From: a virus
DNA: 49,741 bases
Strand: one strand, 5' to 3'
Virus record (IMG/VR): IMGVR_UViG_3300044640_001073
Span: 1 to 49,741 of that record
Shown here: piece by piece, positions 38,457-49,741 of the stretch
How the letters are laid out: each line of letters begins with the position of its first letter
Numbering within the stretch: position 1 is the stretch's first letter
The notes under the pieces: model-generated
Told to the model about the DNA's origin: nothing
The model's input: only the letters and a program-made list of their open reading frames with translations
Databases searched by the model: none
Made by a program: the position numbers and the translations under genes

Positions 38457-38478
38457 ACATTTTTAAAAGGAGAACGAC

Positions 38479-38538: not shown

Positions 38539-38564
38539 GTAAAAGAAAACTATTTACGATCCAT

Positions 38565-38639: not shown

Positions 38640-38642
38640 TAT

Positions 38643-38959: not shown

Positions 38960-38974
38960 ATCAATAAATACTTG

Positions 38975-39157
38975 ATGGAAATTCAATCTATACAACGAAT
39001 ATCAGACTATGTGCGTAATGACATTGTAGTCCGTCAATATTCTCAAATATTAGATCCAAAGACTCTCAAGACCTACTATGAATGTGTGACATACACATAT
39101 CAAGGTACACTTGACTCTTACAATGATAAGGGTCAGGATGTTGATACAAAAGCATAA
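38975..39157 (+). CDS. Small hypothetical protein, 60 aa
   Basis: MEIQSIQRISDYVRNDIVVRQYSQILDPKTLKTY... ends DKGQDVDTKA. The ATG at 38975 lies after hairpin H2; an upstream in-frame ATG at 38945 lies in the hairpin arm. There is no clear ribosome binding site. Composition is protein-like. It ends 1 nt before tRNA-Ser. Confidence 0.5.
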   Translation: MEIQSIQRISDYVRNDIVVRQYSQILDPKTLKTYYECVTYTYQGTLDSYNDKGQDVDTKA

Positions 39158-39158
39158 C

Positions 39159-39246
39159 GGAAGATTGGCAGAGTGGCCGATTGCGTCAGTCTTGAAAACT
39201 GAAGGCTCGAAAGGGTCCGTGAGTTCGAATCTCACATCTTCCTCCA
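39159..39246 (+). tRNA. tRNA-Ser(UGA)
   Basis: 88 nt, class II. Acceptor GGAAGAT/ATCTTCC, U73, CCA. Stem TCAGT/ACTGA, loop CTTGAAA. Long variable arm with a CGAAAG loop. Confidence 0.93.
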
Positions 39247-39253
39247 ACACAAT

Positions 39254-39331
39254 GCCCTTGTGGACAAATTGGCAAAGTCGCTTCTCTCAAAAGGAAGAGT
39301 GTTCTCGGTTCGACTCCGAGCAAGGGTACCA
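39254..39331 (+). tRNA. tRNA-Leu(CAA), short variable loop
   Basis: Acceptor GCCCTTG/CAAGGGT, A73, CCA. Stem CTTCT/GGAAG, loop CTCAAAA. The variable loop is only 6 nt (AGTGTT), whereas bacterial Leu tRNAs are class II. Confidence 0.82.
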
Positions 39332-39336
39332 GTTTT

Positions 39337-39396
39337 AGGATGCTAACAGCAAATTTATACACTCAACTTTTAATTGAAAACGTAAAAATGCATCCT
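39337..39396 (+). ncRNA. Covarying small stem-loop, copy B
   Basis: AGGATGC ... GCATCCT with TAACAGCAAA and GAAAACGTAAAAA blocks, followed by TTTTATTA. tRNA-His starts 10 nt downstream, the same distance as copy A to tRNA-Glu. Confidence 0.6.
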
Positions 39397-39406
39397 GTTT
39401 TATTAT

Positions 39407-39481
39407 GGTGACTATAGTGTAGTGGAAGCACCCGAGTCTGTGAAACTCGTAGTACGGGGTCGGTACCCGTTAGTTACCCCA
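39407..39481 (+). tRNA. tRNA-His(GUG)
   Basis: Encodes the extra G-1 opposite C73, then GTGACTA/TAGTTAC. Stem CGAGT/ACTCG, loop CTGTGAA. CCA encoded. Confidence 0.93.
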
Positions 39482-39486
39482 ATCAT

Positions 39487-39561
39487 GGTGATATAGCACA
39501 GCGGTAGTGCATCTCCTTCATACGGAGCAGGTCGTTAGTTCAAATCTAACTATCACCACCA
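39487..39561 (+). tRNA. tRNA-Met(CAU), elongator type
   Basis: Acceptor GGTGATA/TATCACC, A73, CCA. Stem CTCC/GGAG, loop TTCATAC. The G1-C72 pair excludes the initiator type. Confidence 0.85.
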
Positions 39562-39566
39562 AGTAT

Positions 39567-39640
39567 GCCCGGTTAGTTAAATGGTATAACACACCCCTGA
39601 TAAGGGTGAGACACAGGATCGTAACCTGTACTGGGTACCA
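39567..39640 (+). tRNA. tRNA-Ile(GAU)
   Basis: Acceptor GCCCGGT/ACTGGGT, A73, CCA. Stem CACCC/GGGTG, loop CTGATAA. The T-loop reads ATCGTAA, a departure from TTCGAAT. Confidence 0.85.
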
Positions 39641-39648
39641 CAATTTAT

Positions 39649-39724
39649 ACCCTCTTCGCCAAGTTGGTAAGGCTCGGGATTTTGATTCCCGCATGCGGTG
39701 GTTCGAGTCCATCAGGGGGTGCCA
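39649..39724 (+). tRNA. tRNA-Gln(UUG) 2
   Basis: Acceptor ACCCTCT/AGGGGGT, G73, CCA. Stem CGGGA/TCCCG, loop TTTTGAT. The better Gln copy of the two. Confidence 0.9.
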
Positions 39725-39886
39725 GTTTAGGGATAGACGATAGGTTTGAGTCCCTGTCAATCTAGTCACAGTGGGGTTAACTGTGATGACACTATAGTAT
39801 GATTGATGGGTGTATAAACTTGCCTATGCGAGACAATCTAACGAGGCTTATTAACACTAAGATAGTTAGGCTCCCGATCTTTATAT
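39725..39886 (+). ncRNA. Structured untranslated stretch between tRNA-Gln and tRNA-Thr
   Basis: Contains hairpins AGGGA/TCCCT, GTCACAGT/ACTGTGATGAC, GATTG/CAATC and CTAAC/GTTAG. No ORF or tRNA found. It could be one folded RNA of about 150 nt; no family recognised. Confidence 0.4.
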
Positions 39887-39962
39887 GCTCCCATAGTTTG
39901 TAATGGTAAAATATCTCTTTGGTATGGAGAAGTCGATGGTTCGAATCCATCTAGGAGCACCA
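39887..39962 (+). tRNA. tRNA-Thr(GGU)
   Basis: Acceptor GCTCCCA/TAGGAGC (one C-A), A73, CCA. Stem TCTCT/GGAGA, loop TTGGTAT. Confidence 0.87.
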
Positions 39963-39968
39963 AATTTT

Positions 39969-40043
39969 GGATGATTATTTCAGCGGTAGAATACTTCCGT
40001 GACAAGGAAGAGGTCAGTGGTTCGACCCCACTATCATCCACCA
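39969..40043 (+). tRNA. tRNA-Val(GAC)
   Basis: Acceptor GGATGAT/ATCATCC, A73, CCA. Stem CTTCC/GGAAG, loop GTGACAA. Confidence 0.92.
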
Positions 40044-40071
40044 AACATAATTGACTTGCCATTGTATCAAC

Positions 40072-40079
40072 ACTAAATA
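40072..40079 (+). promoter_or_regulatory. Late-type promoter box ACTAAATA, 5 nt before ATG 40085
   Basis: Weak match to TATAAATA, placed 5 nt before the FkbM-type gene. Confidence 0.3.
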
Positions 40080-40084
40080 TCATA

Positions 40085-40726
40085 ATGAAAAATATTATGA
40101 TTACCGATGTTACTGAGAAAAATTTTATAATTGATTTTTTTAAAAACAAACCAAATGGTAGATTTCTAGAAATAGGTGCAAATGACGGAGAACCAACTCA
40201 GGATACAGAACCCATGTGGGGATTAGTAGAAAAAGGATGGTCAGGGGTATACTGTGAACCAAATCCAATTTCATGTGCTAAATTGATATCAAACATATTA
40301 CCATACAAAGATAAAATACAAGTATTTAATGGTGCAGTTTCTATGAATAATAACGAAGGTCTAGTAGATTTTTATCTTTCGTTACAAACAAGAATGTCAT
40401 CAAGTTTGGATCCCACCTGGAGTAAAAAACAATATTATTACAAACCAGAACATCAACAATATCCAATGATAACCAGTATGGTTAGTTTCCAATCATTAAT
40501 TGATTTTATAGGAAATGATTTTGATTGTATTAGCATTGATGTTGAAAATAATAGTGCAGTGGTATCAGATTTATTAATGTCAATAGATTGGGGTCAGTTT
40601 AAAAATTGTAAAGTGTTGTGTTTAGAAGCTGCCACTTCGAAAGTAATTGAATATCTCAAAACTTTCAATTACACTGAATTCATAAAAACCCCGGTGCATA
40701 ATTTATTATGCATAAAGCCGACATAG
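40085..40726 (+). CDS. FkbM-family methyltransferase
   Basis: 213 aa. FLEIGANDGEPTQDTEPMW holds motif I, GVYCEPNPISCAKL the acidic loop, and FDCISIDVENNSA the IDVE motif typical of FkbM O-methyltransferases. These act on sugars or small molecules. The last 10 nt, including the stop codon, lie inside the following tRNA-Phe gene, whose acceptor stem encodes the final codons. Confidence 0.83.
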   Translation: MKNIMITDVTEKNFIIDFFKNKPNGRFLEIGANDGEPTQDTEPMWGLVEKGWSGVYCEPNPISCAKLISNILPYKDKIQVFNGAVSMNNNEGLVDFYLSLQTRMSSSLDPTWSKKQYYYKPEHQQYPMITSMVSFQSLIDFIGNDFDCISIDVENNSAVVSDLLMSIDWGQFKNCKVLCLEAATSKVIEYLKTFNYTEFIKTPVHNLLCIKPT

Positions 40727-40792
40727 CTCAGTTGGTAGAGCAGTAGACTGAAAATCTATGTGTCGCTGGTTCAACCCCAGCTGTTGGCACCA
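40717..40792 (+). tRNA. tRNA-Phe(GAA) 2
   Basis: Acceptor GCCGACA/TGTTGGC, A73, CCA. Stem GTAGA/TCTAT, loop CTGAAAA. Overlaps the 3' end of the FkbM gene by 10 nt, so its promoter lies within or upstream of that gene. Confidence 0.93.
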
Positions 40793-40831
40793 AATTTTAT
40801 ATTTCTTGTATTATTCAAAAATATCACACGT

Positions 40832-40839
40832 GATAAATA
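40832..40839 (+). promoter_or_regulatory. Late promoter box GATAAATA before 40856
   Basis: 16 nt before the ATG, with ACAGGAG between. Confidence 0.45.
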
Positions 40840-40855
40840 CATACAGGAGACAGAT

Positions 40856-41125
40856 ATGACAACTTTTACTAAATATTCAACATTGACTTTTCAACTTACT
40901 GTAGATTTGGTTCCTGTAAGTTTTTTAGATGCACTAATGACTAAAGCAGATCAAATGGAATCAGAATCTAAAACAAATGGTTTATATACATTTGTTGATG
41001 AACATCGTACTAGACGAGTTTGGTTAGACCAAACTGCCGCAGATGAATGGGTACAGTTTGTTGCAACGGAAGCGGCCTTATATGATGTAGTAATTACTGA
41101 CTATTTAATAGGTGATAACGTATAA
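40856..41125 (+). CDS. Small hypothetical protein, 89 aa
   Basis: MTTFTKYSTLTFQLTVDLVPVSFLDALMTK...; the ATG at 40856 with ACAGGAG is preferred over an open extension to 40760, which runs through tRNA-Phe. Strand-helix-strand pattern (YTFVDEHRTRRVWLDQTAADEWVQFV) resembles the 31811 protein. Followed by a terminator. Confidence 0.65.
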   Translation: MTTFTKYSTLTFQLTVDLVPVSFLDALMTKADQMESESKTNGLYTFVDEHRTRRVWLDQTAADEWVQFVATEAALYDVVITDYLIGDNV

Positions 41126-41146
41126 TCAAATGCATATCTAATAATA

Positions 41147-41175
41147 AACGGTGACTTGTTCACCGTTTTCTTTTG
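41147..41175 (+). terminator. Rho-independent terminator
   Basis: AACGGTGA/TCACCGTT stem with CTTGT loop and a T-rich tail. Ends the 40856 unit just before promoter P6. Confidence 0.85.
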
Positions 41176-41177
41176 TC

Positions 41178-41206
41178 TTGACAAAAATAAACAAATCAAG
41201 TATAAT
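41178..41206 (+). promoter_or_regulatory. Sigma70-type promoter P6 (consensus)
   Basis: TTGACA (41178-41183), 17 bp, TATAAT (41201-41206). The start point would fall almost at tRNA-Arg(UCG). Confidence 0.85.
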
Positions 41207-41213
41207 ACTGTAC

Positions 41214-41288
41214 GGGTCCTTAGTTCAATGGATAGAATACGATGCTTCGAACTTCGGGATGTGGGTTCGATTCCTGCAGGACCCGCCA
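41214..41288 (+). tRNA. tRNA-Arg(UCG)
   Basis: Acceptor GGGTCCT/AGGACCC, G73, CCA. Stem CGATG/CTTCG (one U-U), loop CTTCGAA. Confidence 0.88.
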
Positions 41289-41336
41289 GACCGACATTAA
41301 ATACAATCAGTGACAATAGCAGAAAAGGAGTACACA

Positions 41337-41897
41337 ATGGCTGTTCTAGCACTAGATATCTCGGGAGTTCCAAGACAATGGATCTCATATGATGACGCAA
41401 TTACCTACCAAGCAAAAGATGCCATTGCATGGTCAATGGGGGAAGTTGTGGCTAGATATCGCGGTGGTGTACAGAAAGATGGTACTGAAAGCTACCTAGA
41501 AACTTCTAGCATCATTGCTATCAAAGGTCATGGATTCAACCCATACAAACATTCATGTGTCGCACTAAGTAACAAAACATTGTTCGGTCGTGACAGACAT
41601 GTATGTGCATACTGTGGAGAATACTTTGCAAACTATCATACACTAAGTCGTGACCACATTGTTCCAAAGAGCAAAGGTGGTGAAAACACTTGGATGAACG
41701 TTGTTACAGCTTGTAAAGATTGTAACAGTAAGAAGGGTCATAAGAGTTTGAAAGAAGCACGTATGGAATTGCTTTACGCACCTTACGTACCTAATCATTA
41801 CGAAAATATGATTCTTCAACATAGAACTATTCTTGCTGACCAAATGGAATATTTGCTTGCAGGTGTTCCTAAGCATAGTAGAATTCTCCTAAGCTAG
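41337..41897 (+). CDS. HNH endonuclease
   Basis: 186 aa from the ATG with AAAAGGAG; an in-frame start at 41310 is less likely. CAYCGEYF (C90, C93) and CKDCNSKKG (about C126, C129) form the zinc site; LSRDHIVPKSKGGENTWMN is the catalytic HNH segment. The N-terminal 80 residues are family-specific. It may be a free-standing homing endonuclease in the tRNA array, or a phage recombination/packaging nuclease. Confidence 0.9.
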   Translation: MAVLALDISGVPRQWISYDDAITYQAKDAIAWSMGEVVARYRGGVQKDGTESYLETSSIIAIKGHGFNPYKHSCVALSNKTLFGRDRHVCAYCGEYFANYHTLSRDHIVPKSKGGENTWMNVVTACKDCNSKKGHKSLKEARMELLYAPYVPNHYENMILQHRTILADQMEYLLAGVPKHSRILLS

Positions 41898-41917
41898 AAA
41901 AGATATCACGATGAGGC

Positions 41918-41946
41918 TTGACATAAAAGTTTTGTTGTGATATACT
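41918..41946 (+). promoter_or_regulatory. Sigma70-type promoter P7
   Basis: TTGACA (41918-41923), 17 bp, TATACT (41941-41946). Serves tRNA-Thr(UGU) and tRNA-Asn. Confidence 0.8.
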
Positions 41947-41963
41947 TCAGTTAAATAAAAGAC

Positions 41964-42038
<75 letters not shown>

Positions 42039-42057
42039 AAATTATTGTCAGTTTTAT

Positions 42058-42133
42058 TCCTCAATAGCACAGCGGTAGTTGCGTCTGACTGTTAATCAGA
42101 ATGTCGGTGGTTCGATCCCATCTTGAGGAGCCA
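42058..42133 (+). tRNA. tRNA-Asn(GUU) 2
   Basis: Acceptor TCCTCAA/TTGAGGA, G73, CCA. Stem TCTGA/TCAGA, loop CTGTTAA. Canonical copy. Confidence 0.93.
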
Positions 42134-42155
42134 ATCAAATCGTTATTGTCAAAAG

Positions 42156-42184
42156 TTGACAATAATTCACAAATCCTCTATAAT
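42156..42184 (+). promoter_or_regulatory. Sigma70-type promoter P8 (consensus)
   Basis: TTGACA (42156-42161), 17 bp, TATAAT (42179-42184). Precedes tRNA-Arg(UCU) by 21 nt. Confidence 0.85.
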
Positions 42185-42205
42185 AGAGACAAGTAAGAAA
42201 TTCAT

Positions 42206-42280
42206 CTGGCGTTCGTTCAACGGATAGGACATCATTCTTCTAAAGTGATTATAGGGGTTCGATTCCCTTACGCCGGACCA
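42206..42280 (+). tRNA. tRNA-Arg(UCU)
   Basis: Acceptor CTGGCGT/ACGCCGG, A73, CCA. Stem TCATT/AGTGA, loop CTTCTAA. Its ACCA end starts the arm of hairpin H3. Confidence 0.9.
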
Positions 42281-42388
42281 AATTAAAACACATTACTCAC
42301 AGGACAGCCAAATCTGTCTGTAACTTCTAGTTGTAACCAAGCGTGAGAACTTGGGAAGTGTGATTCTCATAGTGTGTTTTAATTTGGT
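42277..42388 (+). ncRNA. Long-hairpin RNA H3
   Basis: ACCAAATTAAAACACATTA pairs with TAGTGTGTTTTAATTTGGT (one G-U). Inner CTCAC/GTGAG stem holds a GACAG/CTGTC hairpin. Followed by TGTTGTA-GAAA-TACAACA, a GNRA hairpin (42391-42408). Confidence 0.6.
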
Positions 42389-42417
42389 TCTGTTGTAGAA
42401 ATACAACAAGATAAAAT

Positions 42418-42446
42418 TTGACAATAAATGGATATGGTGTTACAAT
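42418..42446 (+). promoter_or_regulatory. Sigma70-type promoter P9
   Basis: TTGACA (42418-42423), 17 bp, TACAAT (42441-42446), followed by CATGAGTTGAGAAAG as after P2/P3. It drives the cluster of long hairpins H4a-H4d. Confidence 0.8.
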
Positions 42447-42485
42447 CATAGCATGAGTTGAGAAAGTCATCGCACTTCTTAACAA

Positions 42486-42503
42486 CGATCTTTAAAAATT
42501 TAT
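42486..42503 (+). promoter_or_regulatory. boxA-like antitermination leader
   Basis: CGATCTTTAAAAATTTAT, about 35 nt after the predicted start of P9. It resembles boxA of bacterial rRNA leaders (TGTTCTTTAAAAATTT type in betaproteobacteria). Better matches are at 43762 and 45212. Confidence 0.45.
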
Positions 42504-42504
42504 T

Positions 42505-42604
42505 GAATATGATGTCCTCGCATAGACAACACAAAGCACGATAATGTTGCTAAGTGATAACAGTCCGTAATCTTGTGAAAGAAAACGTAGCGAGGAGTCA
42601 TATA
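42505..42604 (+). ncRNA. Long-hairpin RNA H4a
   Basis: AATATGATGTCCTCGC pairs with GCGAGGAGTCATATA, 7 bp of GC-rich helix extended by ATGA/TCAT. About 70 nt loop. Its 3' arm shares TCATATA with H4b, so the two stems are mutually exclusive at the ends. Confidence 0.5.
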
Positions 42605-42707
42605 AAAACATACTTCATGCACCATTCGAAAGATGTAAGTGGGTAGACATGGTGTTCGCTGAGTTGAAAGATTCAGAAAGATACTTTGGTAGTATGTTTT
42701 TATATGA
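42598..42707 (+). ncRNA. Long-hairpin RNA H4b
   Basis: TCATATAAAAACATACT (42598-42614) is perfectly complementary to AGTATGTTTTTATATGA (42691-42707), 17 bp. The loop matches that of H0 in several blocks (ATGCACCATT, GGGTAGACATGGT, CTTTGGTAGTATG). Confidence 0.65.
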
Positions 42708-42711
42708 TTAA

Positions 42712-42823
42712 TCATATAAAAACGCATATTAGTTTGAAAGTCCAGCTAAGTTGAGCGTCCCCTGTAAAACGGGGAAAGAGCTAGAATTGCAGGTTAGTAT
42801 TGCTTTTATGTGTTTTTATATGA
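42712..42823 (+). ncRNA. Long-hairpin RNA H4c
   Basis: TCATATAAAAACGCATA pairs with TATGTGTTTTTATATGA (one G-U). Loop with hairpin CCCC-TGTAAAA-CGGGG. Separated from H4b by TTAA, so the junction itself is the palindrome TATATGATTAATCATATA. Confidence 0.6.
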
Positions 42824-42830
42824 TTTGTGG

Positions 42831-42898
42831 TCATATTGAAGTGTATACAGGCATGTCGCCTCGCTGGATCGGGGGTGTTTGTGTGTATTTCAATATGA
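42831..42898 (+). ncRNA. Long-hairpin RNA H4d
   Basis: TCATATTGAA pairs with TTCAATATGA, extended by GTGTATAC with GTGTGTAT across a bulge. Inner AGGC-ATGTC-GCCT hairpin. Shortest of the cluster; tRNA-Glu follows 4 nt later. Confidence 0.5.
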
Positions 42899-42902
42899 TT
42901 AT

Positions 42903-42977
42903 GGAGCCATCGTCTATCGGTTAGGACACAAGGTTTTCATCCTTGGAAGCGGGGTTCGATTCCCCGTGGCTCTTCCA
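42903..42977 (+). tRNA. tRNA-Glu(UUC) 2
   Basis: Acceptor GGAGCCA/TGGCTCT (G1-U72), U73, CCA. Stem CAAGG/CCTTG, loop TTTTCAT. Confidence 0.88.
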
Positions 42978-43182
42978 GAATCCAGTTACTACTTTCTTTA
43001 AAGTAGCGTTTGAATAGCGACAGAGTTCCGGTGGCAGAAGACCGTAAGCGCAGGGATGGAAACTACCCCAGCAGAATCTGATAGGCAGAATCTCACTGCA
43101 CACAGACTTTGAATAAATGAGATGGACAGAGTAACCGCTCAATTAAGGGCTGGCATGGAACCCAGTAGCTTATACTAATTTT
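42978..43182 (+). ncRNA. Structured stretch of 205 nt before tRNA-Tyr
   Basis: No ORF with a plausible start. Holds CTACTTT-CTTT-AAAGTAG and several shorter pairings; CAGGGATGGAAACTACCCC resembles CAGGGATACTGGAAACTGCC at 46673. It may be a folded RNA; family not recognised. Confidence 0.35.
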
Positions 43183-43269
43183 GGAGATGTAGGAAAATTG
43201 GTAACCCCAGTGGACTGTAAATCCGCCGCCCGAAAGGCACTACTGGTTCGACTCCAGTCATCTCCACCA
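43183..43269 (+). tRNA. tRNA-Tyr(GUA)
   Basis: 87 nt, class II. Acceptor GGAGATG/CATCTCC, A73, CCA. Stem GTGGA/TCCGC, loop CTGTAAA. Normal D-arm, unlike the 37933 copy. Confidence 0.93.
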
Positions 43270-43333
43270 AGTTTATGAGTTCGTCTAGAAACCGGTAAAT
43301 TGTAGTTTAGTCTACAAGCTCATGATTAGTTTT

Positions 43334-43410
43334 GCACCGTTAGATCAGTTGGTTAGATCGCATGCCTGTCACGCATGAGGCCAGGGGTTCGAGTCCCCTA
43401 CGGTGCGCCA
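43334..43410 (+). tRNA. tRNA-Asp(GUC) 2
   Basis: Acceptor GCACCGT/ACGGTGC, G73, CCA. Stem CATGC/GCATG, loop CTGTCAC. Canonical copy. Confidence 0.94.
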
Positions 43411-43416
43411 AATATA

Positions 43417-43506
43417 TGGACATGATGTGTCAATTACCTGATGCTGGTATGAAATTCCCTAATAGCATAGGGGAAAGAAGTGGGTTAGATTCCCAATATT
43501 GTCCAC
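43417..43506 (+). ncRNA. tRNA-like element without readable anticodon
   Basis: Ends in ACCA after GGACA/TGTCC acceptor pairing, with a T-arm-like GTGGG-TTAGATT-CCCAA and a TACC...GGTA arm. The arm in the anticodon position (TTCCCTA-ATAGCA-TAGGGGAA) has a 6 nt loop lacking U33. A degenerate tRNA or a tRNA mimic. Confidence 0.5.
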
Positions 43507-43726
43507 CAAAGTTTTGTAAGTGTCAGCAAGTGGAGTCACGCTGTTTAGGTTTCTTCGAAGGACTGAAACAGTAGAAGGTAGCGGGTTCGACCCCCGTCCG
43601 ATCGGAAGATCGGAATACAGTTGGAGTATCATCTGGACAAAGCCCAAGTGACGTATCTTGACCCAGCCGGCTTAATTACATGGGAAAATGGTTGCGATAT
43701 GAGGGACGTAACGGCTTACAAATTCA
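43507..43726 (+). other. Noncoding stretch with hairpins, no clear gene
   Basis: Contains CTGTTT...AAACAG, an isolated T-arm-like GCGGG-TTCGACC-CCCGT without CCA, and CCGATC-GGAA-GATCGG (GNRA-type). An open frame from 43621 runs into tRNA-Leu and is not convincing. Possibly a decayed tRNA plus RNA structure. Confidence 0.35.
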
Positions 43727-43755
43727 TTGACAACAATTTGTATTTGATATATAAT
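43727..43755 (+). promoter_or_regulatory. Sigma70-type promoter P10 (consensus)
   Basis: TTGACA (43727-43732), 17 bp, TATAAT (43750-43755). The boxA-like sequence follows immediately, then tRNA-Leu(UAA). Confidence 0.85.
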
Positions 43756-43761
43756 ACAGAC

Positions 43762-43778
43762 TGTTCTTTAAAAAGTAA
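43762..43778 (+). promoter_or_regulatory. boxA-like antitermination leader
   Basis: TGTTCTTTAAAAAGTAA, at the predicted 5' end of the P10 transcript. It matches the rRNA-leader boxA core TTCTTTAAAAA. Confidence 0.55.
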
Positions 43779-43780
43779 TT

Positions 43781-43865
43781 GCGACTGTGGTGAAATAGGT
43801 AGACACAAGAGACTTAAAATCTCTCGCTTAACAGCATCCCGGTTCGATTCCGGGCAGTCGCACCA
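43781..43865 (+). tRNA. tRNA-Leu(UAA)
   Basis: 85 nt, class II. Acceptor GCGACTG/CAGTCGC, A73, CCA. Stem AGAGA/TCTCT, loop CTTAAAA. The only Leu tRNA here with a long variable arm. Confidence 0.94.
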
Positions 43866-43874
43866 AAGAATGAT

Positions 43875-43951
43875 GCCTCTATAGCGCAATTGGTTAGCGC
43901 AGTGGACTCATAATCCATTGGTTCCTGGTTCGAGTCCAGGTGGAGGCACCA
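43875..43951 (+). tRNA. tRNA-CAU, Ile2 (lysidine) or elongator Met
   Basis: Acceptor GCCTCTA/TGGAGGC, A73, CCA. Stem GTGGA/TCCAT, loop CTCATAA followed by TTGGT, which resembles E. coli Ile2 (k2CAU). If Ile2 it would read AUA, useful for an AT-rich phage. Confidence 0.85.
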
Positions 43952-43959
43952 TCTAAATA

Positions 43960-44051
43960 GGAGACGTGGCCGAGTGGCCGAAGGCAGCAGGTTGCTAACC
44001 TGTCGTATGTGGCAACACGTACCGTGAGTTCGAATCTCACCGTCTCCACCA
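43960..44051 (+). tRNA. tRNA-Ser(GCU)
   Basis: 92 nt, class II. Acceptor GGAGACG/CGTCTCC, A73, CCA. Stem GCAGG/CCTGT, loop TTGCTAA. Confidence 0.93.
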
Positions 44052-44052
44052 A

Positions 44053-44235
44053 TCAGCGATGATTTGTTTTGTTTATGATTTGATGTAAAATAGTAGGATC
44101 ATCACTCATCATTCGAGCAAGCAATCCAGTAAGGTAGCCCCGTTCATATAATAACTGTTCGTGGCTATCTTTATAATTACGTTTGTGTTGACGCAAAAGT
44201 TTTTCAATAACATCAATGCAGTTTTGGAGTTCCAT
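44053..44235 (-). CDS. Small conserved-looking phage protein, 60 aa
   Basis: MELQNCIDVIEKLLRQHKRNY... ends IINKTNHR. Two amphipathic helices (CIDVIEKLLRQHKR and LYERGYLTGLLARMM), reminiscent of small phage proteins with a YERGYLxGLLA motif. Preceded on its strand by an ATTAAATA box 4 nt before the ATG. Ends 1 nt from tRNA-Ser. No function assigned. Confidence 0.7.
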   Translation of the reverse strand: MELQNCIDVIEKLLRQHKRNYKDSHEQLLYERGYLTGLLARMMSDDPTILHQIINKTNHR

Positions 44236-44239
44236 ACTA

Positions 44240-44247
44240 TATTTAAT
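44240..44247 (-). promoter_or_regulatory. Late-type promoter box ATTAAATA, 4 nt before ATG 44235
   Basis: Same 4 nt spacing to the start codon as other late-type boxes in this window; two mismatches to TATAAATA. Confidence 0.35.
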
Positions 44248-44258
44248 AAAAAAATGTA

Positions 44259-44789
44259 TTATTTTAAGTTAAGTATATTTTTAATATCTTTCATAGTGAC
44301 TCTGCTATAGTCACTTTGATGACGTACTACAATAGTCAGGCACCATCTGGGTTCTAACATATTTAAAATATTATGTGGTATACCTACTTGTACTATGTTG
44401 TACTCTGATAAAGTTTGCTCATATATTTTTTCAACCTCATTTAAATCATACGGTATAAATAATCCAGGTTTACCAGTAGCACCTTCTTTAGTGTGAGTTA
44501 TGTCTTTAGTTTTGTACCAAATCATTTTGCTATCTTTACCACCATAAATATAGTTTATTTTAACATAATCTCCGCCTTCACAGTCTGTGTGGGGCTTAAT
44601 GAAGCTTGGGGTAGATTTGTAAAATAACCCAAAACTAGTCAATGCTAAATTGTATTGTTTAAAAAAATCATATAACTTTAGATTTATATCTTTTGGATCA
44701 ATAGGCTGATATGGTATTGTTCCATACTCAGTGATGGATTTGTTTAAAGGATAAAAATCTAAAGTTAAAGGAATACAGTAATCAGTCAT
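44259..44789 (-). CDS. Fe(II)-dependent oxygenase-like protein
   Basis: 176 aa. H67-T-D69 in FIKPHTDCEGG, distal H139 in VGIPHNILNM, R148 in EPRWCLTIVVRH. The HxD...H triad plus conserved Arg fits the double-stranded beta-helix oxygenase fold shared with 6895, 30726 and 31208. It has a TATAAATA box 4 nt upstream of its ATG. Confidence 0.62.
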   Translation of the reverse strand: MTDYCIPLTLDFYPLNKSITEYGTIPYQPIDPKDINLKLYDFFKQYNLALTSFGLFYKSTPSFIKPHTDCEGGDYVKINYIYGGKDSKMIWYKTKDITHTKEGATGKPGLFIPYDLNEVEKIYEQTLSEYNIVQVGIPHNILNMLEPRWCLTIVVRHQSDYSRVTMKDIKNILNLK

Positions 44790-44793
44790 ACTG

Positions 44794-44801
44794 TATTTAT
44801 A
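44794..44801 (-). promoter_or_regulatory. Late promoter box TATAAATA, 4 nt before ATG 44789
   Basis: Exact consensus on the minus strand, four bases from the start codon. Confidence 0.55.
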
Positions 44802-45000
44802 AAGAACGTTCCGGGCGTCTCCGGATACTGTGACCCACAGGATGAGAAGTACAGTGACATGTACGGGTGGTAGTCTTTAAACCCAAAGGCCGCTAGCAAT
44901 GCGAGAACGGTCCCTGTCGGGAAGCGGGTGGAAGGTAGCACAATGTATGGGTTCATCCATGATGCCACTATAATTACCGCCGGGGGACGCAGAGCAATAT
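44802..45000 (+). ncRNA. GC-rich structured stretch before tRNA-Cys
   Basis: About 200 nt without a convincing ORF. TCCGGGCG...CGGA, TACTGTGA...TACAGTGA and CCCTGTCGGG pairings suggest a folded RNA. It is more GC-rich than its surroundings. Not recognised. Confidence 0.35.
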
Positions 45001-45077
45001 GTGGGTATGTAGCTGAATGGTTAGGCCTCGGATTGCAAATCCGACTCATGCAGGTTCGATCCCTGTTACCCACTCCA
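45001..45077 (+). tRNA. tRNA-Cys(GCA)
   Basis: Acceptor GTGGGTA/TACCCAC, U73 (Cys identity base), CCA. Stem TCGGA/TCCGA, loop TTGCAAA. Confidence 0.94.
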
Positions 45078-45085
45078 GAATATAT

Positions 45086-45159
45086 GCGGGGCTCGTATAG
45101 TGGTAATACCTTAGCCTTCCAAGCTAAAGCGAGGGGTTCGATTCCCCTGCCCCGCTCCA
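45086..45159 (+). tRNA. tRNA-Gly(UCC)
   Basis: Acceptor GCGGGGC/GCCCCGC, U73, CCA. Stem TTAGC/GCTAA, loop CTTCCAA. Confidence 0.94.
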
Positions 45160-45176
45160 AATTTGTCCAAAAGTTG

Positions 45177-45205
45177 TAGACAGATAAATAACTATCTGCT
45201 ATAAT
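45177..45205 (+). promoter_or_regulatory. Sigma70-type promoter P11
   Basis: TAGACA (45177-45182), 17 bp, TATAAT (45200-45205). Followed by a boxA-like leader and tRNA-Leu(UAG). Confidence 0.7.
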
Positions 45206-45211
45206 ATCTTT

Positions 45212-45230
45212 TGTTCTTTAAAAATTTATA
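45212..45230 (+). promoter_or_regulatory. boxA-like antitermination leader
   Basis: TGTTCTTTAAAAATTTATA, at the predicted 5' end of the P11 transcript; the best boxA match in the window. Confidence 0.6.
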
Positions 45231-45241
45231 GTAAGTATTTT

Positions 45242-45318
45242 GCCCAGGTGACGGAATTGGTATACGTGTTGGTCTTAGAAGCCAAATTTTGAGAGTTCGA
45301 GTCTCTCCTTGGGCACCA
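45242..45318 (+). tRNA. tRNA-Leu(UAG), short variable loop
   Basis: Acceptor GCCCAGG/CTTGGGC, A73, CCA. Stem TTGGT/GCCAA, loop CTTAGAA. D-arm is Leu-like (GGAATTGGTATACG), but the variable loop is only ATTTT. The CCA overlaps hairpin H5. Confidence 0.87.
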
Positions 45319-45397
45319 TATTAAAGCATACTGCCGAAGTTGGTTCGGTTAGACAGGGAGATCCAATTGCCCATGTCGTTAGTATGTTTTAATATGG
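45316..45397 (+). ncRNA. Long-hairpin RNA H5
   Basis: CCATATTAAAGCATACT (45316-45332) pairs with AGTATGTTTTAATATGG (45381-45397), 17 bp with one G-U. Inner CCGAA-GTTGG-TTCGG hairpin. It spans from the CCA of tRNA-Leu to the first two bases of tRNA-Ala. Confidence 0.62.
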
Positions 45398-45471
45398 GGG
45401 TGTAGCTCAGTTGGGAGAGCGGTTGCTTTGCAAGCAATAGGTCGCAGGTTCGATCCCTGTCTCCTCCACCA
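45396..45471 (+). tRNA. tRNA-Ala(UGC) 2
   Basis: Acceptor GGGGGTG/CTCCTCC with G3:U70, A73, CCA. Stem GTTGC/GCAAT, loop TTTGCAA. Confidence 0.94.
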
Positions 45472-45521
45472 GAATATTAAAATCTAATGTAACATGTCTA
45501 AATAACATACAGGAGATTGAA

Positions 45522-46190
45522 ATGAACATAGTAGTAATAGGGGGCGGCAAGCCCGGCAAATTTGGTAATGATTTTTGTAATCGTGCAAGAAATGAAGGAC
45601 ATAATGTGTATGTTATTAGTCATAAAGACTATGGCACTAATGATCCTAAACATGTTGTAGCACCGTTCAATAACGTTGTTGATTTTTTAGAAGCATTCAA
45701 AAATCTAACTAAAGATTTAGACACAATAGATATTCTATTGTACAATAGTAATGCACATTCATATCCGGGACGTCCGGACGAGTTACAGTCTACCGGTAAT
45801 GTTTCACCGGAGAAGTGGATACAAGCTCTAACATTAAATGTAATCATACCTCATGCAGTTTCTTTAGAAGCACTAAAGAAAATGTCTAAAGGTAGTGGTA
45901 TTGTTTTTATGACTTCCATGATGTCATATGACCTTAGTCGTAAAGATTGGACGGCTACAGTAGGATATGCAGGACTTAAGGGAGTACAGAATCATTTAAT
46001 GATTGGTTTAGCAAATCATAATGATAAAGGAGCTGTTGTAACTTGTGTTTCACCTCACTTCCCTTATGATAATGCAGAAAAATACAGTATGGTTTTAAAT
46101 CATACTTACAATTATATTACTTCTTTAACAGAAGAAAGTAATGGCAAAATCAGAGGTATTTGGGATAACACGCCTAAATACATGAACTAA
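45522..46190 (+). CDS. Short-chain dehydrogenase/reductase-like protein
   Basis: 222 aa. N-terminal nucleotide-binding loop VVIGGGKPGKFG (residues 4-15), a DILLYNSNAH segment in place of NNAG, and the YxxxK catalytic pair Y149/K153 in GYAGLKG with a preceding FMTSMMS (Ser). A complete SDR core with short substrate loop. ATG follows ACAGGAGATTGAA. Substrate unknown; sugar nucleotide or acyl reduction is possible. Confidence 0.83.
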   Translation: MNIVVIGGGKPGKFGNDFCNRARNEGHNVYVISHKDYGTNDPKHVVAPFNNVVDFLEAFKNLTKDLDTIDILLYNSNAHSYPGRPDELQSTGNVSPEKWIQALTLNVIIPHAVSLEALKKMSKGSGIVFMTSMMSYDLSRKDWTATVGYAGLKGVQNHLMIGLANHNDKGAVVTCVSPHFPYDNAEKYSMVLNHTYNYITSLTEESNGKIRGIWDNTPKYMN

Positions 46191-46248
46191 GAGTAACGAA
46201 TCACAAAGAAAGCGAGGTTAATATGCGATTTTAGATAAGGAGAACAAC

Positions 46249-46569
46249 ATGTCTAGAACGTATAAAGACCTCCCTAGCAAACTCAGATATCCTGAGGAAG
46301 CATGGGACTATCGTTACTACTTTTCAGGCGGCCGCAAGTACATTGATTACTTAGAGTATCCTGGAGTTTTAACTAAGAAGAAAAAGAATATTGATACAGA
46401 GAATCACTGGATGAGTACACCAATGTGGTGGGTTCGTGAAATGATGAATCAACCACAACGAGCAAAAGGCAATCAGTGGGAGAAAATTGTATTGAAAGTA
46501 GATATCAGTGATTTGGACATCATTGATTACCCGAGTGTGAGCCGCAAGCCCCACTTGTACTACTGGTAA
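46249..46569 (+). CDS. Conserved-looking phage protein, 106 aa
   Basis: MSRTYKDLPSKLRYPEEAWDYRYYF... The SRTYKDLPSKLRYPE opening recurs, as I recall, in small T4-like phage proteins. Basic KKKKN patch near residue 44 and a WWVREMMNQPQRAK segment. AAGGAGAAC 7 nt upstream of the ATG. No function known. Confidence 0.7.
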   Translation: MSRTYKDLPSKLRYPEEAWDYRYYFSGGRKYIDYLEYPGVLTKKKKNIDTENHWMSTPMWWVREMMNQPQRAKGNQWEKIVLKVDISDLDIIDYPSVSRKPHLYYW

Positions 46570-46853
46570 ATAAACCCGTCTTACTATTTTTACGTAACGA
46601 AATAGCGTCCCTGTAACGATAGAACAGGGGGTACACTAGGACCTGACCTCACAGTCCCCATTTCAGGGATACTGGAAACTGCCTAGGGTGAGGATTAACA
46701 GCCTTTCCAAAAGAAGAAAATGTTATGGACAGTGTAACAACTCAGAGATTGGGCTTATGTGGTGTAAGTAGCAGTCTCACTTTATAAGTGTGTTTCACAC
46801 CCAGCTGATAAGACTGGCTCTGTCGAGTGAAAAAGAAATACATTTATAAATTA
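46570..46853 (+). ncRNA. Structured stretch of 284 nt before initiator-like tRNA
   Basis: No plausible ORF. Nested pairings: CCCTGT/ACAGGG, CCTCAC/GTGAGG enclosing CAGT-CCC...GGG-CTG, and GGTGT...ACACC enclosing CACTT-TAT-AAGTG. The order suggests a single folded RNA. It is not tmRNA or RNase P RNA by their known core sequences. Confidence 0.45.
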
Positions 46854-46927
46854 CGCGGGTAGGGTGGTCACCACACCGGTCTCATAAGCCAGGTGCATCG
46901 GCAGTTCGAATCTGTCACCCGCATCCA
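46854..46927 (+). tRNA. Initiator-type tRNA-fMet(CAU)
   Basis: CGCGGGT pairs with ACCCGCA except C1-A72, the mismatch that permits formylation. U73, CCA. Loop CTCATAA; stem CCGGT/GCCAG has G29-C41 and G30-C40 but U31-G39 instead of the third G-C. Confidence 0.85.
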
Positions 46928-46941
46928 AATAGGAAAATCGT

Positions 46942-47091
46942 ATGCCAATGTATGAAACAACAGTTCGCACACCTCAAGGTGATACCAAAGATAAAGTCTT
47001 TGCACCTAATGTACAAGAAGCTAAGAAGCTTTTTGAACAGAAACATGGTCCTAGAAATGTTCCATACATACCGCATATGATACCAAGTTAA
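46942..47091 (+). CDS. Small ORF, 49 aa
   Basis: MPMYETTVRTPQGDTKDKVFAPNVQEAKKLFEQ... ends YIPHMIPS. AGGA 8 nt upstream of the ATG. The strand-turn-helix pattern (TVRTPQGD...NVQEAKKLFEQKHG) recalls small phage proteins with a conserved helix. It lies between tRNA-fMet and tRNA-Pro. Function unknown. Confidence 0.6.
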   Translation: MPMYETTVRTPQGDTKDKVFAPNVQEAKKLFEQKHGPRNVPYIPHMIPS

Positions 47092-47093
47092 TT

Positions 47094-47170
47094 CGGAGTG
47101 TGGCGCAGTCTGGTAGCGCACCTGGTTTGGGACCAGGGGGTCCAAGGTTCGAATCCTTGTACTCCGACCA
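47094..47170 (+). tRNA. tRNA-Pro(UGG)
   Basis: Acceptor CGGAGTG/TACTCCG, A73, CCA. Stem CCTGG/CCAGG, loop TTTGGGA. Canonical copy. Confidence 0.95.
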
Positions 47171-47193
47171 AAGTTTTTAAAAGAGGAAATAGT

Positions 47194-47361
47194 ATGACAT
47201 GTAGAGGTTATGATTCAAAGGCAGTTAAAGTCCCCAAATCAGTTAAACGTGCCGCGGCATTGATTAGTGATGCTCATGTGCGCGGGGCTTTTATTCGTAG
47301 TTTTGTTGAGATTGAAAAAAGCAACTCACGTTCAGGTGGGAGTCGAGGAGACAAGAAGTGA
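47194..47361 (+). CDS. Small basic protein, 55 aa
   Basis: MTCRGYDSKAVKVPKSVKRAAALISDAHVRGAFIRSFVEIEKS... with AAGAGGAA upstream; the open extension to 47098 runs through tRNA-Pro and is not used. The basic N-terminus and central helix suggest nucleic-acid binding, by inference. GTGA overlap with the next ORF. Confidence 0.6.
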   Translation: MTCRGYDSKAVKVPKSVKRAAALISDAHVRGAFIRSFVEIEKSNSRSGGSRGDKK

Positions 47362-47549
47362 GCAAGGGCAGTAGACCCCGTCCCTATAGTGTTAACTTAA
47401 ACACATTTAATAATAACTGGGACAATATTTTTAGAAAAAATCAAGTAGATGATGACAAGCAACCTCCACCGGGAACTAGTCGTATTGAATCATCTAATAT
47501 TAATATTGATGTTGATACAGAAGTTAAAGATAGTACCCAGGGTGGTTAG
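47358..47549 (+). CDS. Small hypothetical protein, 63 aa, GTG start
   Basis: MSKGSRPRPYSVNLNTFNNNWDNIFRK... GTG start overlapping the previous stop by 4 nt. The first half is basic and Asn-rich, the second acidic (VDDDKQ, DVDTEVKD). Resembles small T4-like phage proteins with FxxNWDxIF; no function known. Confidence 0.6.
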   Translation: MSKGSRPRPYSVNLNTFNNNWDNIFRKNQVDDDKQPPPGTSRIESSNINIDVDTEVKDSTQGG

Positions 47550-47559
47550 ATAGAATTAT

Positions 47560-47634
47560 GCATCGATAGCTCAGGGGTAGAGCGTCTCCTTTACACGGAG
47601 AGGGTCCGCGGTTCGAAACCGTGTCGATGTACCA
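47560..47634 (+). tRNA. tRNA-Val(UAC)
   Basis: Acceptor GCATCGA/TCGATGT, A73, CCA. Stem TCTCC/GGAGA, loop TTTACAC. Confidence 0.93.
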
Positions 47635-47651
47635 AACATAAAGGAGTAACT

Positions 47652-47792
47652 ATGAGCAAAAGTGAAGATGTGATTAGTCGTGCATATGGACATATTGTAA
47701 AAGAAGTTACTCCCATAATTAGTTTTGATATAATTGTATTTCGTGGTTTCAAATACTACTGGTACAAGTTAGTCAGAAAAGTTACAAGATAA
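47652..47792 (+). CDS. Small ORF, 46 aa
   Basis: MSKSEDVISRAYGHIVKEVTPIISFDIIVFRGFKYYWYKLVRKVTR with a strong AAAGGAG 7 nt before the ATG (sequence given for its two halves without break only here in part). A hydrophobic middle and basic C-terminus. It fills the gap between tRNA-Val and tRNA-Gly exactly. Function unknown. Confidence 0.6.
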   Translation: MSKSEDVISRAYGHIVKEVTPIISFDIIVFRGFKYYWYKLVRKVTR

Positions 47793-47867
<75 letters not shown>

Positions 47868-47892
47868 AGTTTTACAACAACAGAAAGATGTT

Positions 47893-48114
47893 ATGACTGA
47901 AAGCAGAGCAAGATATACAAGTGAAGAAGCCGCACTCATGGTTGGGAGTCGATTTGATTTAGTTCTTATTGCCTCACAACGTGTAAGAGAATTAAAGCGT
48001 GGACATCGTTCTACACTTAATACTAAAGCAGGACCAATTGTAACTGCATTGATGGAAATCGAAGCTGGTCTAGTAGGTCGTGAATATCTAAAACGAATTA
48101 GAAAGAATTTATAA
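47893..48114 (+). CDS. rpoZ: RNA polymerase omega subunit
   Basis: 73 aa. SRFDLVLIASQRVRELKRG (residues 19-37) corresponds to NRFDLVLVAARRARQM of E. coli omega, and IVTALMEIEAGLV (about 52-64) to the conserved second helix. The N-terminal SEEAALMVG matches VQDAVEKIG. Omega aids assembly of beta-prime and sigma choice. Phage omega could redirect host polymerase, for example toward the late promoters. It lies between tRNA-Gly and tRNA-Trp. Confidence 0.87.
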   Translation: MTESRARYTSEEAALMVGSRFDLVLIASQRVRELKRGHRSTLNTKAGPIVTALMEIEAGLVGREYLKRIRKNL

Positions 48115-48119
48115 ACAAT

Positions 48120-48193
48120 ATCTCCCTAATGTAATGGCAGCATACCGGTCTCCAAAACCGTTAGTCAAGGTTCGAGTCCTTGGGGGGATGCCA
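48120..48193 (+). tRNA. tRNA-Trp(CCA)
   Basis: Acceptor ATCTCCC/GGGGGAT, G73, CCA. Stem CCGGT/ACCGT (27-43 open), loop CTCCAAA. Last tRNA of the array. Confidence 0.93.
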
Positions 48194-48213: not shown

Positions 48214-48242
48214 TTGTCAATAAATCAATACAGTGTTACAAT
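48214..48242 (+). promoter_or_regulatory. Sigma70-type promoter P12
   Basis: TTGTCA (48214-48219), 17 bp, TACAAT (48237-48242), then ACATGTATTGAAAG, similar to the block after P2, P3 and P9. It drives the long leader of the Ro-like gene. Confidence 0.7.
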
Positions 48243-48249
48243 ACATGTA

Positions 48250-48776
48250 TTGAAAGATTAAAAGGTTAGGTACAGCAATCCATACTTTATTGGAACTGTT
48301 AGACACTGTGGTGAATCATTGGAGCAAAGCAGGTAAAACTGTGTAGCGTTGAAGGTGTTCATTGAAGCAAGACTAACAAGCTCAGAGTGATGGCCTGAGT
48401 TTAATAAAAGCAGTCAACAACTAACCTGTTTGTATTCTAGGATGATTACAGCAACTTAAACATAAAATCTGAACTAATTGCTATAGAAGATGGTCGCAGG
48501 ACACAGTAGAAATACTGTTCTAGGAAACTAGACATTGAAGGAATAGACGACACATTGGAAAGACTTTGTATGTTGCTAGTAGCAGACACAATTACTAGAT
48601 AGTCAACATGAATTGTTGATAGGGTCTACGAAACTGAACCGATATACAGGGGATGAGGTAGACCAGAAAATAAACTTAACCGTTTCACTCATCCTGCTAG
48701 AGACATAGAATGTTAACAGCAAATTTAAATTTCAACCAATATCTGAAAACAAAACACATTCTGAGAGGTAAATAAA
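48250..48776 (+). ncRNA. Long structured leader / candidate Y-like RNA upstream of Ro-like gene
   Basis: 527 nt with no ORF. AGGTTAG (48263) pairs with CTAACCT (48421), enclosing GTTAGAC/GACTAAC and a CTCAG/CTGAG hairpin: a branched domain of about 165 nt. Further hairpins include ACAGTA-GAAA-TACTGT, CTAG-GAAA-CTAG, and GGTCTAC/GTAGACC, with GGATGAG/CTCATCC as an alternative. It may hold one or more small RNAs bound by the downstream protein, or be a long regulatory leader. Confidence 0.5.
48707..48762 (+). ncRNA. Covarying small stem-loop, copy C
   Basis: AGAATGT ... ACATTCT with TAACAGCAAA and GAAAACAAAA blocks. Relative to copies A and B both changed stem positions are compensated. It ends 14 nt before the Ro-like ATG and would hold or flank its ribosome binding site (GAGAGG). 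Confidence 0.62.
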
Positions 48777-49741
48777 ATGAACGCATTTGTAAACGCAATC
48801 GCAAATCAAGAAGCCCGTACTACAAACGGTATGAAGGCTCGTAAGTCAACCGCTAACTCAGTGGTTGATCTATTCTACAACATCGGCGCAAGCCGTGGTA
48901 AGAACATTATCCCAGCATTCACTGCGGCTTATGTGCAAGACAAGGACCTCGCTTTGCGTGTGGCTTTGTGGGCACGTGATGCACGTGGTGGTGCAGGTGA
49001 ACGTCAACTGTTCCGTGATATCTTGTCATACTTGGAAAAGCATGACCCAGAAGCGGCAGCACGTTTGCTAGTTAAGATTCCTGAAGTAGGTCGTTTCGAT
49101 GACTTGTTTGTCTTTAAGGACAAGGATCTTAAGGCTAAGGCATATTCTTTGTTAGGTGACAACCTTCGTGCAAAGAACGGCTTGGCAGCTAAGTGGACTC
49201 CTCGTAAGGGAGAAGTAGCACGTGAAATCCGTGAATTCTTCGGTATGAGTCCTAAGCAATATCGTAAGCAACTTGTGTCAATGACTAAGGTTGTTGAAAC
49301 ACAAATGTGTGCTAACGATTGGGACAACATCAACTATTCGCATGTGCCTTCACAGGCATCACGAATCTACAAGAAGGCGTTCAACCGTCATTCTACTACA
49401 TTCGCTGAATACGTTGCAAAGTTGGTGAGTGGTGACAAGACAGTGAAGGTCAATGCTTCGGCAGTGTTCCCTCATGAAGTCTTGAAGGGTTTAATCTCTG
49501 CGTACGGCCGTTCTACTTTGGGTAAGACCGAATTGGATCACGTAACCGCACAATGGGATGCATTGCCTAACTACATGAACGATGCAAACATTCTACCATT
49601 GGTAGACGTATCTGGTTCTATGACTTGCCCAGCAGGTGGAACTGGTTCAGTAACATGTTTGGACGTTTCTGTTTCGCTTGGTTTGTACCTAGCTGACAAG
49701 AACAAGGGTGCGTTCAAGGACACATTCTTGACTTTCAGTGG
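48777..49741 (+). CDS. Ro60/TROVE-like (DUF2828-like) RNA-binding protein with vWA domain (3' partial)
   Basis: 321 aa visible; the frame is open at the window end. The N-terminal part is an all-helical repeat region: AFTAAYVQDKDLALRVALWARDARGGAGER and LLVKIPEVGRFDDLFVF (shown in parts) are typical of TROVE/DUF2828 proteins. A vWA domain begins with LVDVSGSMTC near residues 274-283, the metal-binding DxSxS motif. Ro60-type rings bind Y RNAs and misfolded or tRNA-like RNAs. G/C-richer and codon-biased compared with its surroundings, suggesting high expression. GAGAGG upstream of the ATG. Confidence 0.85.
   Translation, partial: MNAFVNAIANQEARTTNGMKARKSTANSVVDLFYNIGASRGKNIIPAFTAAYVQDKDLALRVALWARDARGGAGERQLFRDILSYLEKHDPEAAARLLVKIPEVGRFDDLFVFKDKDLKAKAYSLLGDNLRAKNGLAAKWTPRKGEVAREIREFFGMSPKQYRKQLVSMTKVVETQMCANDWDNINYSHVPSQASRIYKKAFNRHSTTFAEYVAKLVSGDKTVKVNASAVFPHEVLKGLISAYGRSTLGKTELDHVTAQWDALPNYMNDANILPLVDVSGSMTCPAGGTGSVTCLDVSVSLGLYLADKNKGAFKDTFLTFS

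Follow-up and report, generated by a model that had tools for sequence, protein, structure and literature searches.

Which RNAs serve as partners of a viral Ro protein, and what sets the amount of the protein itself? Ro60, which binds RNA, is old and widespread and a major autoantigen in humans; viral members mostly bear the annotation 'hypothetical' or 'RNA-binding'. To our knowledge, the function of Ro has been worked out in detail for scarcely more than a single bacterial species. The question is raised by the end of virus record IMGVR_UViG_3300044640_001073 (positions 1 to 49,741, the whole stretch of 49,741 nucleotides (nt) analysed here, called the window), where a Ro60/TROVE-like gene follows a tRNA array and an untranslated leader. 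We find that the leader contains three tandem copies of a hairpin design with the core ACAGCAA, that the same design stands free between tRNA genes of the array, and that it recurs beside the Ro genes of unrelated phages. The hairpins of leader and array are probably the RNA partners in a phage Ro60-Y RNA system.

A Ro fold in the predicted model

The protein is encoded by the last gene of the window:

48777 to 49741, + strand: Ro60/TROVE-like RNA-binding protein gene, recognised by its open reading frame (ORF), PHROG 850 and fold; vWA/metal-ion-dependent adhesion site (MIDAS) motif DVSGSM

The frame opens with the start codon at 48777 and is still open at the window end (321 codons, 48777-49739). 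It matches PHROG 850 'RNA-binding protein' (E 1e-90) and Pfam DUF2828, and carries DVSGSM at residues 277-282. As a full-length stand-in we used the 471-residue product of the viral contig L005, whose leader is identical over 586 nt and whose protein is identical at 317 of 321 positions of the shared part; it matches DUF7788 and, weakly, vWA_Ro60 (E 0.016, 15.6 bits, below the Pfam cut-off of 27.7). The Pfam search reported no match of the protein to TROVE, and a sequence search of the Protein Data Bank (PDB) yielded nothing usable. Sequence families by themselves would not place the protein in TROVE; its membership rests on the predicted fold.

An initial AlphaFold2 model built from closely related sequences, a shallow alignment, already ranked Ro proteins at the top (predicted local distance difference test, pLDDT, 72). 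It was replaced by a model of the L005 protein from an alignment deepened with relatives down to ~34% identity (pLDDT 80.5, predicted template modelling score 0.73). Aligned to the PDB with VIA-align, this model finds Ro/TROVE proteins in all of its top ten entries (Z 13.5-18.5), among them the Ro60 of Thermus phage phiLo, which has the same fold:

9kop, 'Trove domain' (phiLo Ro60): Z 18.5
Four Ro autoantigen/Ro60 entries: Z 17.1-17.6
9l5y, Thermus phage phiLo Ro60: Z 17.3
Two more Ro60 complexes: Z 15.2
2nvo, Deinococcus Rsr: Z 14.2
Human Ro60: Z 13.5

The best eight Ro entries superimpose with an rmsd of 4.4-4.6 over 394-410 residues and through both domains (residues 8-471 of the model), and Foldseek concurs (E 4e-8). 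Since the Ro entries align through both domains and vWA-only entries score lower, the best non-Ro entry being a vWA domain alone (Z 10.9), the ring domain is present in the model, which shows a Ro/TROVE ring followed by a C-terminal vWA domain. Among 28 divergent sequences D277, S279, S281, T349 and D381 are invariant, and we infer that T349 and D381 are the MIDAS residues accompanying DxSxS. The initial annotation had recognised a Ro60/TROVE-like protein from its helical repeats and DVSGSM motif, and had suggested a fold comparison with Ro60 and Rsr; this comparison bears the assignment out, and the refuting outcome, a fold lacking that ring, did not emerge. By tblastn, the family is present in 677 of 50,697 phage records (1.3%), each less than 60% identical to the window copy; many close copies occur in viral contigs.

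Three tandem domains upstream of the Ro gene

The region between the tRNA array and the Ro gene has the following organization:

48214 to 48242, + strand: sigma70-type promoter TTGTCA-17-TACAAT; the transcript would start at ~48249
48249 to 48776, + strand: structured 5' leader preceding the Ro-like gene, with three tandem Y-RNA-like domains (conservation, covariation)
48264 to 48428, + strand: domain 1; helix GGTTAG/CTAACC (48264-48269 / 48421-48426), ACAGCAA 48272-48278, UG 48427-48428
48440 to 48696, + strand: domain 2; helix GGATGA/TCATCC (48440-48445 / 48689-48694), ACAGCAA 48448-48454
48623-48629 with 48658-48664, crossed by GAAAC 48630-48634 with GTTTC 48682-48686, + strand: pseudoknot inside domain 2 (covariation)
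48708 to 48763, + strand: domain 3, a minimal hairpin; helix GAATGT/ACATTC (48708-48713 / 48756-48761), ACAGCAA 48716-48722
48764 to 48768, + strand: Shine-Dalgarno sequence AGAGG, adjoining the 3' end of domain 3 (sequence)

Each domain consists of a 6-bp helix strand, two nt, ACAGCAA, a variable interior, the second helix strand and UG, which in the leader expands to the repeat AGG-helix-NN-ACAGCAA ... helix'-CUG(UU). Within the 900 nt searched, the number of core motifs in relatives ranges from one to five and is mostly two to four. The coding strand of the 527-nt leader (48250-48776) contains no long ORF, and over 60 viral contigs share its DNA at 65-100% identity. The motif CATCCTG..AGAATGTTAACAGCAA at its 3' end was followed in 98 of 98 contigs by a Ro-like ORF starting ~81-133 nt further on, and in almost all of these contigs the distance from domain 3 to the start codon is near-constant. 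As a single sequence the promoter scores no better than shuffles; TTGACA-like and TATAAT-like boxes stand in the corresponding position in almost every relative listed. The untranslated leader and the promoter, both proposed initially from one sequence, are thus also found in the comparison.

For the covariation analysis, leader sequences were picked by core motif and position and not by pairing; covariation was counted on these alignments only, because helix pairing was a selection criterion in the scans of other phages described below. The closing helix of domain 1 is paired in 100% of cells over 30 relatives, with 24 double-sided changes, against none in a control slid by 1-3 columns. The helix of domain 3 is 98.9% paired, with double-sided changes at five of seven pairs. 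The closing helix of domain 2 is 97.5% paired and covaries, as do the two pseudoknot helices, which are paired in 90.0% and 95.9% of cells; single pairs show as many as 17 double-sided changes. Slid controls collapse for every helix tested; shuffles among related sequences are no more than a guide.

A pseudoknot like that of domain 2 is typical of RNAs for sensing or translational control, and would suit a leader that is a cis-regulatory sensor of some other factor, such as a host protein, an RNase or the state of translation, with ACAGCAA as the site of that factor. We regard this as unlikely, as the signature follows the Ro gene through phages of hosts from four bacterial phyla and is nearly absent from Ro-negative phages, and as free hairpins also exist without a downstream gene.

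The related contig L010 carries part of the leader's 5' half once more at 4370-4607, ~1.1 kb upstream of its complete leader, perhaps a module duplication in progress.

Free copies of the design among tRNA genes

The initial annotation had also seen hairpin RNAs in the tRNA array, and two of these indeed carry the signature of the leader, each with a length of about 55-60 nt:

37683 to 48193, + strand: array of ~37 tRNA genes, holding the free-standing hairpins; the leader begins after it
38194 to 38247, + strand: free Y-like hairpin between tRNA-Phe and tRNA-Glu, GGATGC-TA-ACAGCAA...GCATCC-TG; homologues in 25 loci
39338 to 39395, + strand: free Y-like hairpin of the same design between tRNA-Leu and tRNA-His; homologues in 33 loci

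One further match in the window, at position 791, lies far from the array, has another helix and is probably due to chance. Related contigs contain 42 distinct free copies with a median length of 61 nt, all 42 on the Ro strand and 40 of them no more than 100 nt from a tRNA, a distance that is mostly 5-13 nt among the examples listed. From this position, it is likely that the free hairpins are excised from the tRNA transcript.

The array holds other conspicuous stretches that lack the signature. A second untranslated stretch of ~280 nt before tRNA-Met (46570-46853) is conserved in 50 related loci, with up to 90% identity over 219 nt, has no Rfam match and is probably another structured RNA. Further hairpin-like or structured-looking stretches lie at 38715-38960, matched in four related loci, and at 45319-45395 and 44790-45000, matched in none. 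Positions 38643-38717 are a tRNA according to Rfam (61.8 bits) that ARAGORN missed.

One signature beside the Ro genes of unrelated phages

Is the design tied to Ro beyond the close relatives of the window? From a diverse set of 22 isolated Ro-positive phages we took 1.19 Mb of sequence, most of it surrounding Ro, and scanned it for the slot helix6-N2-[7-mer]-N12..150-helix6', ranking all 16,380 7-mers. ACAGCAA ranks first (66 occurrences against 13.4 expected, p 2.5e-27); with the UG tail, the slot is found 36 times against 0.87 expected (p 8e-46). In the list without the tail requirement, words of the tRNA D-arm rank next, and the preferred spacer between helix and ACAGCAA is 2-3 nt. Taken together with the covariation in the leader, this test excludes chance as the origin of the signature. 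Reading the lists by eye and allowing relaxed variants (an NCAGCA core, a UG or AG tail), we find that 19 of the 22 phages have it, either next to Ro or within a tRNA array, for example:

LAh_9: seven tandem signatures before Ro
LMTA-94: three before Ro
CPX: two
S-CoN_Ph7 and MsGreen: three after Ro
Milchi: four in the tRNA array

The Ro-negative phages T4, SPO1 and XacN1 contain one signature in 660 kb; per ACAGCAA site, 42 of 264 in Ro-positive phages belong to a signature, against one of 117 in Ro-negative ones (Fisher p 1.8e-6). Twelve new Ro loci, sampled later as an independent set, have 23 signatures in their flanks, where shuffled sequence gives 0.2. A BLAST search of 50,697 phages with one free hairpin returned Milchi, GAP32 and XbC2 as the best distinct records, all of them Ro-positive. 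The pairing of Ro and signature spans phages of Proteobacteria, Firmicutes, Actinobacteria and Cyanobacteria. A search by peptide patterns in 84,980 bacterial and archaeal genomes gave a single match for this type of Ro, on contig RXKF01000034.1 of a Rickettsiales metagenome-assembled genome, with one signature upstream; it may be a phage contig within the bin.

The closeness of 40 of the 42 free copies to a tRNA could also mean that the hairpins are processing signals of the array, or terminators, unrelated to Ro. This we consider very improbable: the signature is absent from T4 and XacN1, which bear tRNAs and lack Ro; tandem arrays beside Ro occur with no intervening tRNA (LAh_9, CPX, S-CoN_Ph7), as well as inside the Ro leader; and the hairpins do not have the T-run design of a terminator.

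Comparative genomics thus strongly supports the Y-RNA-like partner that the initial annotation had anticipated, and specifies it further, since leader, tRNA array and the surroundings of Ro in unrelated phages all share one signature. Hairpins of this kind are encoded and co-occur with a Ro gene, their two ends pair into a closing helix next to which lie conserved unpaired bases, and they covary. We infer that they are phage Y RNAs in the broad sense of noncoding RNAs (ncRNAs) that partner Ro.

Placement relative to the start codon

In seven Ro loci, including the window, 10-23 nt separate the end of the last hairpin from the start codon of Ro:

DLP_6: 10 nt
LAh_9: 12 nt
Window: 13 nt
phiM19: 15 nt
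CPX: 20 nt
BUCT-ZZ01: 21 nt
RHph_I1_18: 23 nt

In Vibrio phage VH7D, the hairpin GACATT-TT-ACAGCAA-..GAGGAA..-AATGTC-AG even encloses the Shine-Dalgarno sequence and has the start codon within its 3' strand. By our own estimate, such placement at the ribosome-binding site (RBS) would be expected ~0.001 times at the background rate of Ro-negative phages. Because the last hairpins sit at the RBS of Ro, we propose autogenous translational control, and control of Ro expression is the better-supported role for the leader than the guarding of tRNAs. In the Aeromonas phage LAh_9, the annotated start of Ro lies ~105 nt upstream of the conserved one and overlaps the last two hairpins (record positions 29929-30034); the annotated start is probably wrong.

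Alternatively, the leader might be a Y RNA precursor only, with domains that are excised and act in trans, and proximity to the start codon would reflect co-transcription. Free copies in the same genome look excisable, given their short distances to tRNAs, and several phages have hairpins downstream of Ro, where they are unable to control its translation. We hold this to be a possible but rather doubtful account, as it does not foresee the last hairpin at the RBS in eight divergent loci, the start codon inside the closing helix in VH7D, or the near-constant spacing of domain 3 from the start codon in almost all of the 98 viral contigs.

Several observations weigh against a Ro-binding signature that controls Ro translation. 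The hairpins stand downstream of Ro in Alf5, KP2025, S-CoN_Ph7 and MsGreen, and at least 73 nt before its start in LMTA-94, EFDG1 and BUCT194, so that RBS control is not universal. The searched segments of three of the 22 Ro-positive phages (phiAS5, ME3, PMS2) contain no convincing signature and the copies of GAP32 were found ~200 kb from Ro, so that the linkage is not absolute either. Domain 3 alone is no more stable than shuffled sequence, and the Ro ORF is truncated by the window end, its full length of ~471 residues being taken from L005. Finally, the case for ACAGCAA as the Ro site is one of association, since bacterial YrlA uses other conserved strands (GGCGAAUGC..).

Comparison with known RNAs and earlier reports

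Bacterial Y RNAs of the YrlA type contain a tRNA-like module, and the initial annotation had considered such modules at this locus. No match to one (T-arm, acceptor-like stem and D-arm in permuted order) was found in the window elements; YrlA (RF02553) has no match up to E 5 in the stretch of array and leader, and none at the gathering score in the whole window. As identities of leader or array, GOLLD, ROOL and YrlA were rejected, with no Rfam match at E up to 5 other than tRNAs and chance matches. The module is evident, though, in Sinorhizobium phage phiM19, where Rfam YrlA matches with 35.2 bits (cut-off 69) over a T-arm, acceptor and D-arm. The closing helix of this element, CGAGTC/GACTCG, is followed by AT-CAACAGCACC, and it therefore combines the tRNA-like module and the ACAGCA signature in one RNA. 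The tRNA-like Y RNA module, not matched in the window leader, thus exists in a phage with the signature.

In a one-phylum sample of bacterial YrlA, the closing strands (GGCGAAUGC..GGAACUACA / CUUGUCGCC) differ from those of the phages, so that the phage signature represents a related architecture with another motif. ACAGCAA as the Ro site of bacterial YrlA itself was ruled out, as these RNAs have other conserved strands. Also rejected were YrlA matches at tRNA pairs in DLP_6 and S13, which span two neighbouring ordinary tRNAs. In Cronobacter phage S13, a signature hairpin (L083, 5155-5290) encloses what by eye appears to be a permuted tRNA-like module; it lies 0.8 kb downstream of Ro and adjoins a tRNA annotated 'tRNA-OTHER'.

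The phage loci resemble the Rsr/Y RNA system of Deinococcus radiodurans and bacterial rsr-yrlBA operons in joining a Ro/TROVE fold with small RNAs that adjoin the protein gene. Rsr, however, is ~14% identical to the phage protein in the structural alignment, and neither a pseudoknotted three-domain leader nor an RBS-abutting hairpin turned up in the YrlA stretches examined. Like GOLLD, ROOL and other large ornate phage RNAs, the leader is a large structured RNA near phage tRNA genes; unlike GOLLD and ROOL, it is strictly linked to the Ro gene and has no Rfam match.

Phage Ro proteins themselves have precedents. The TROVE protein of some jumbo phages has been linked to RNA repair (PMC7824862), and mycobacteriophage records already carry the annotation 'Ro-like RNA binding protein', of the same family PHROG 850 as the window protein. 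Likely Y RNAs in bacteria and mycobacteriophages were reported by Chen et al. (2014), as cited in PMC12282133. According to the latter, Listeria phage CKA15 encodes the Rsr-like CKA15_055, abundant ncRNAs just upstream of it were proposed as Y RNAs, and mass spectrometry of purified virions identified the protein itself (20 peptides, 57% coverage), which suggests that Ro may enter the cell with the particle. We find three signature hairpins at 25,289-25,560 of the CKA15 record, directly before the Ro gene. The most-read region (26,236-26,727) was ruled out as signature hairpins, as it lacks the signature. Neither the motif nor leader control was found in the available portion of that account, unlike in the proposal made here. 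The open literature, subscription papers being outside the search, gave no prior description of the signature, the leader or the tRNA-array hairpins. Phage Ro proteins and Y RNAs are thus already known, and the signature, the tandem leader and the RBS site appear to be new.

Discussion

How could the elements act together? The RNA partners of Ro would be hairpins whose closing helix is followed by NN-ACAGCAA on its 5' side and by UG on its 3' side, and from the association across phages we consider it highly likely that Ro binds this signature. Y-like RNA would come from two sources, free hairpins cut from the tRNA-array transcript and the Ro mRNA leader with its three tandem domains. When in excess of free Y-like RNAs, Ro would bind the leader, cover the RBS and switch off its own translation; we lean slightly towards such repression through the RBS hairpin, given its placement. 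That the signature is universal to phage Ro and also occupies the mRNA leader and RBS, letting Ro gauge how much free Y RNA there is and set its own level accordingly, has in our judgement an even chance of being right. We know of no Ro protein for which an autogenous circuit of this kind has been described.

Taking Deinococcus Rsr as an analogy, the Ro-RNA particle may act in infected cells on RNA that is structured, damaged or misfolded. A guarding of tRNAs by the Ro-Y system is compatible with the gene neighbourhood. Of the initially proposed phage Ro-Y RNA system for tRNAs, the Ro fold and the Y-like partner stand, and the guarding or remodelling of tRNAs draws support from no test.

With a searchable signature of the likely RNA partner of Ro, lists of such RNAs can be drawn up phage by phage, across more than 650 sequenced phages with a Ro-family protein, and binding can be tested directly in phages that are workable. 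The hairpin abutting the RBS offers a cheap handle on autoregulation, and the signature lets one ask why tRNA-rich phages retain a Ro particle.
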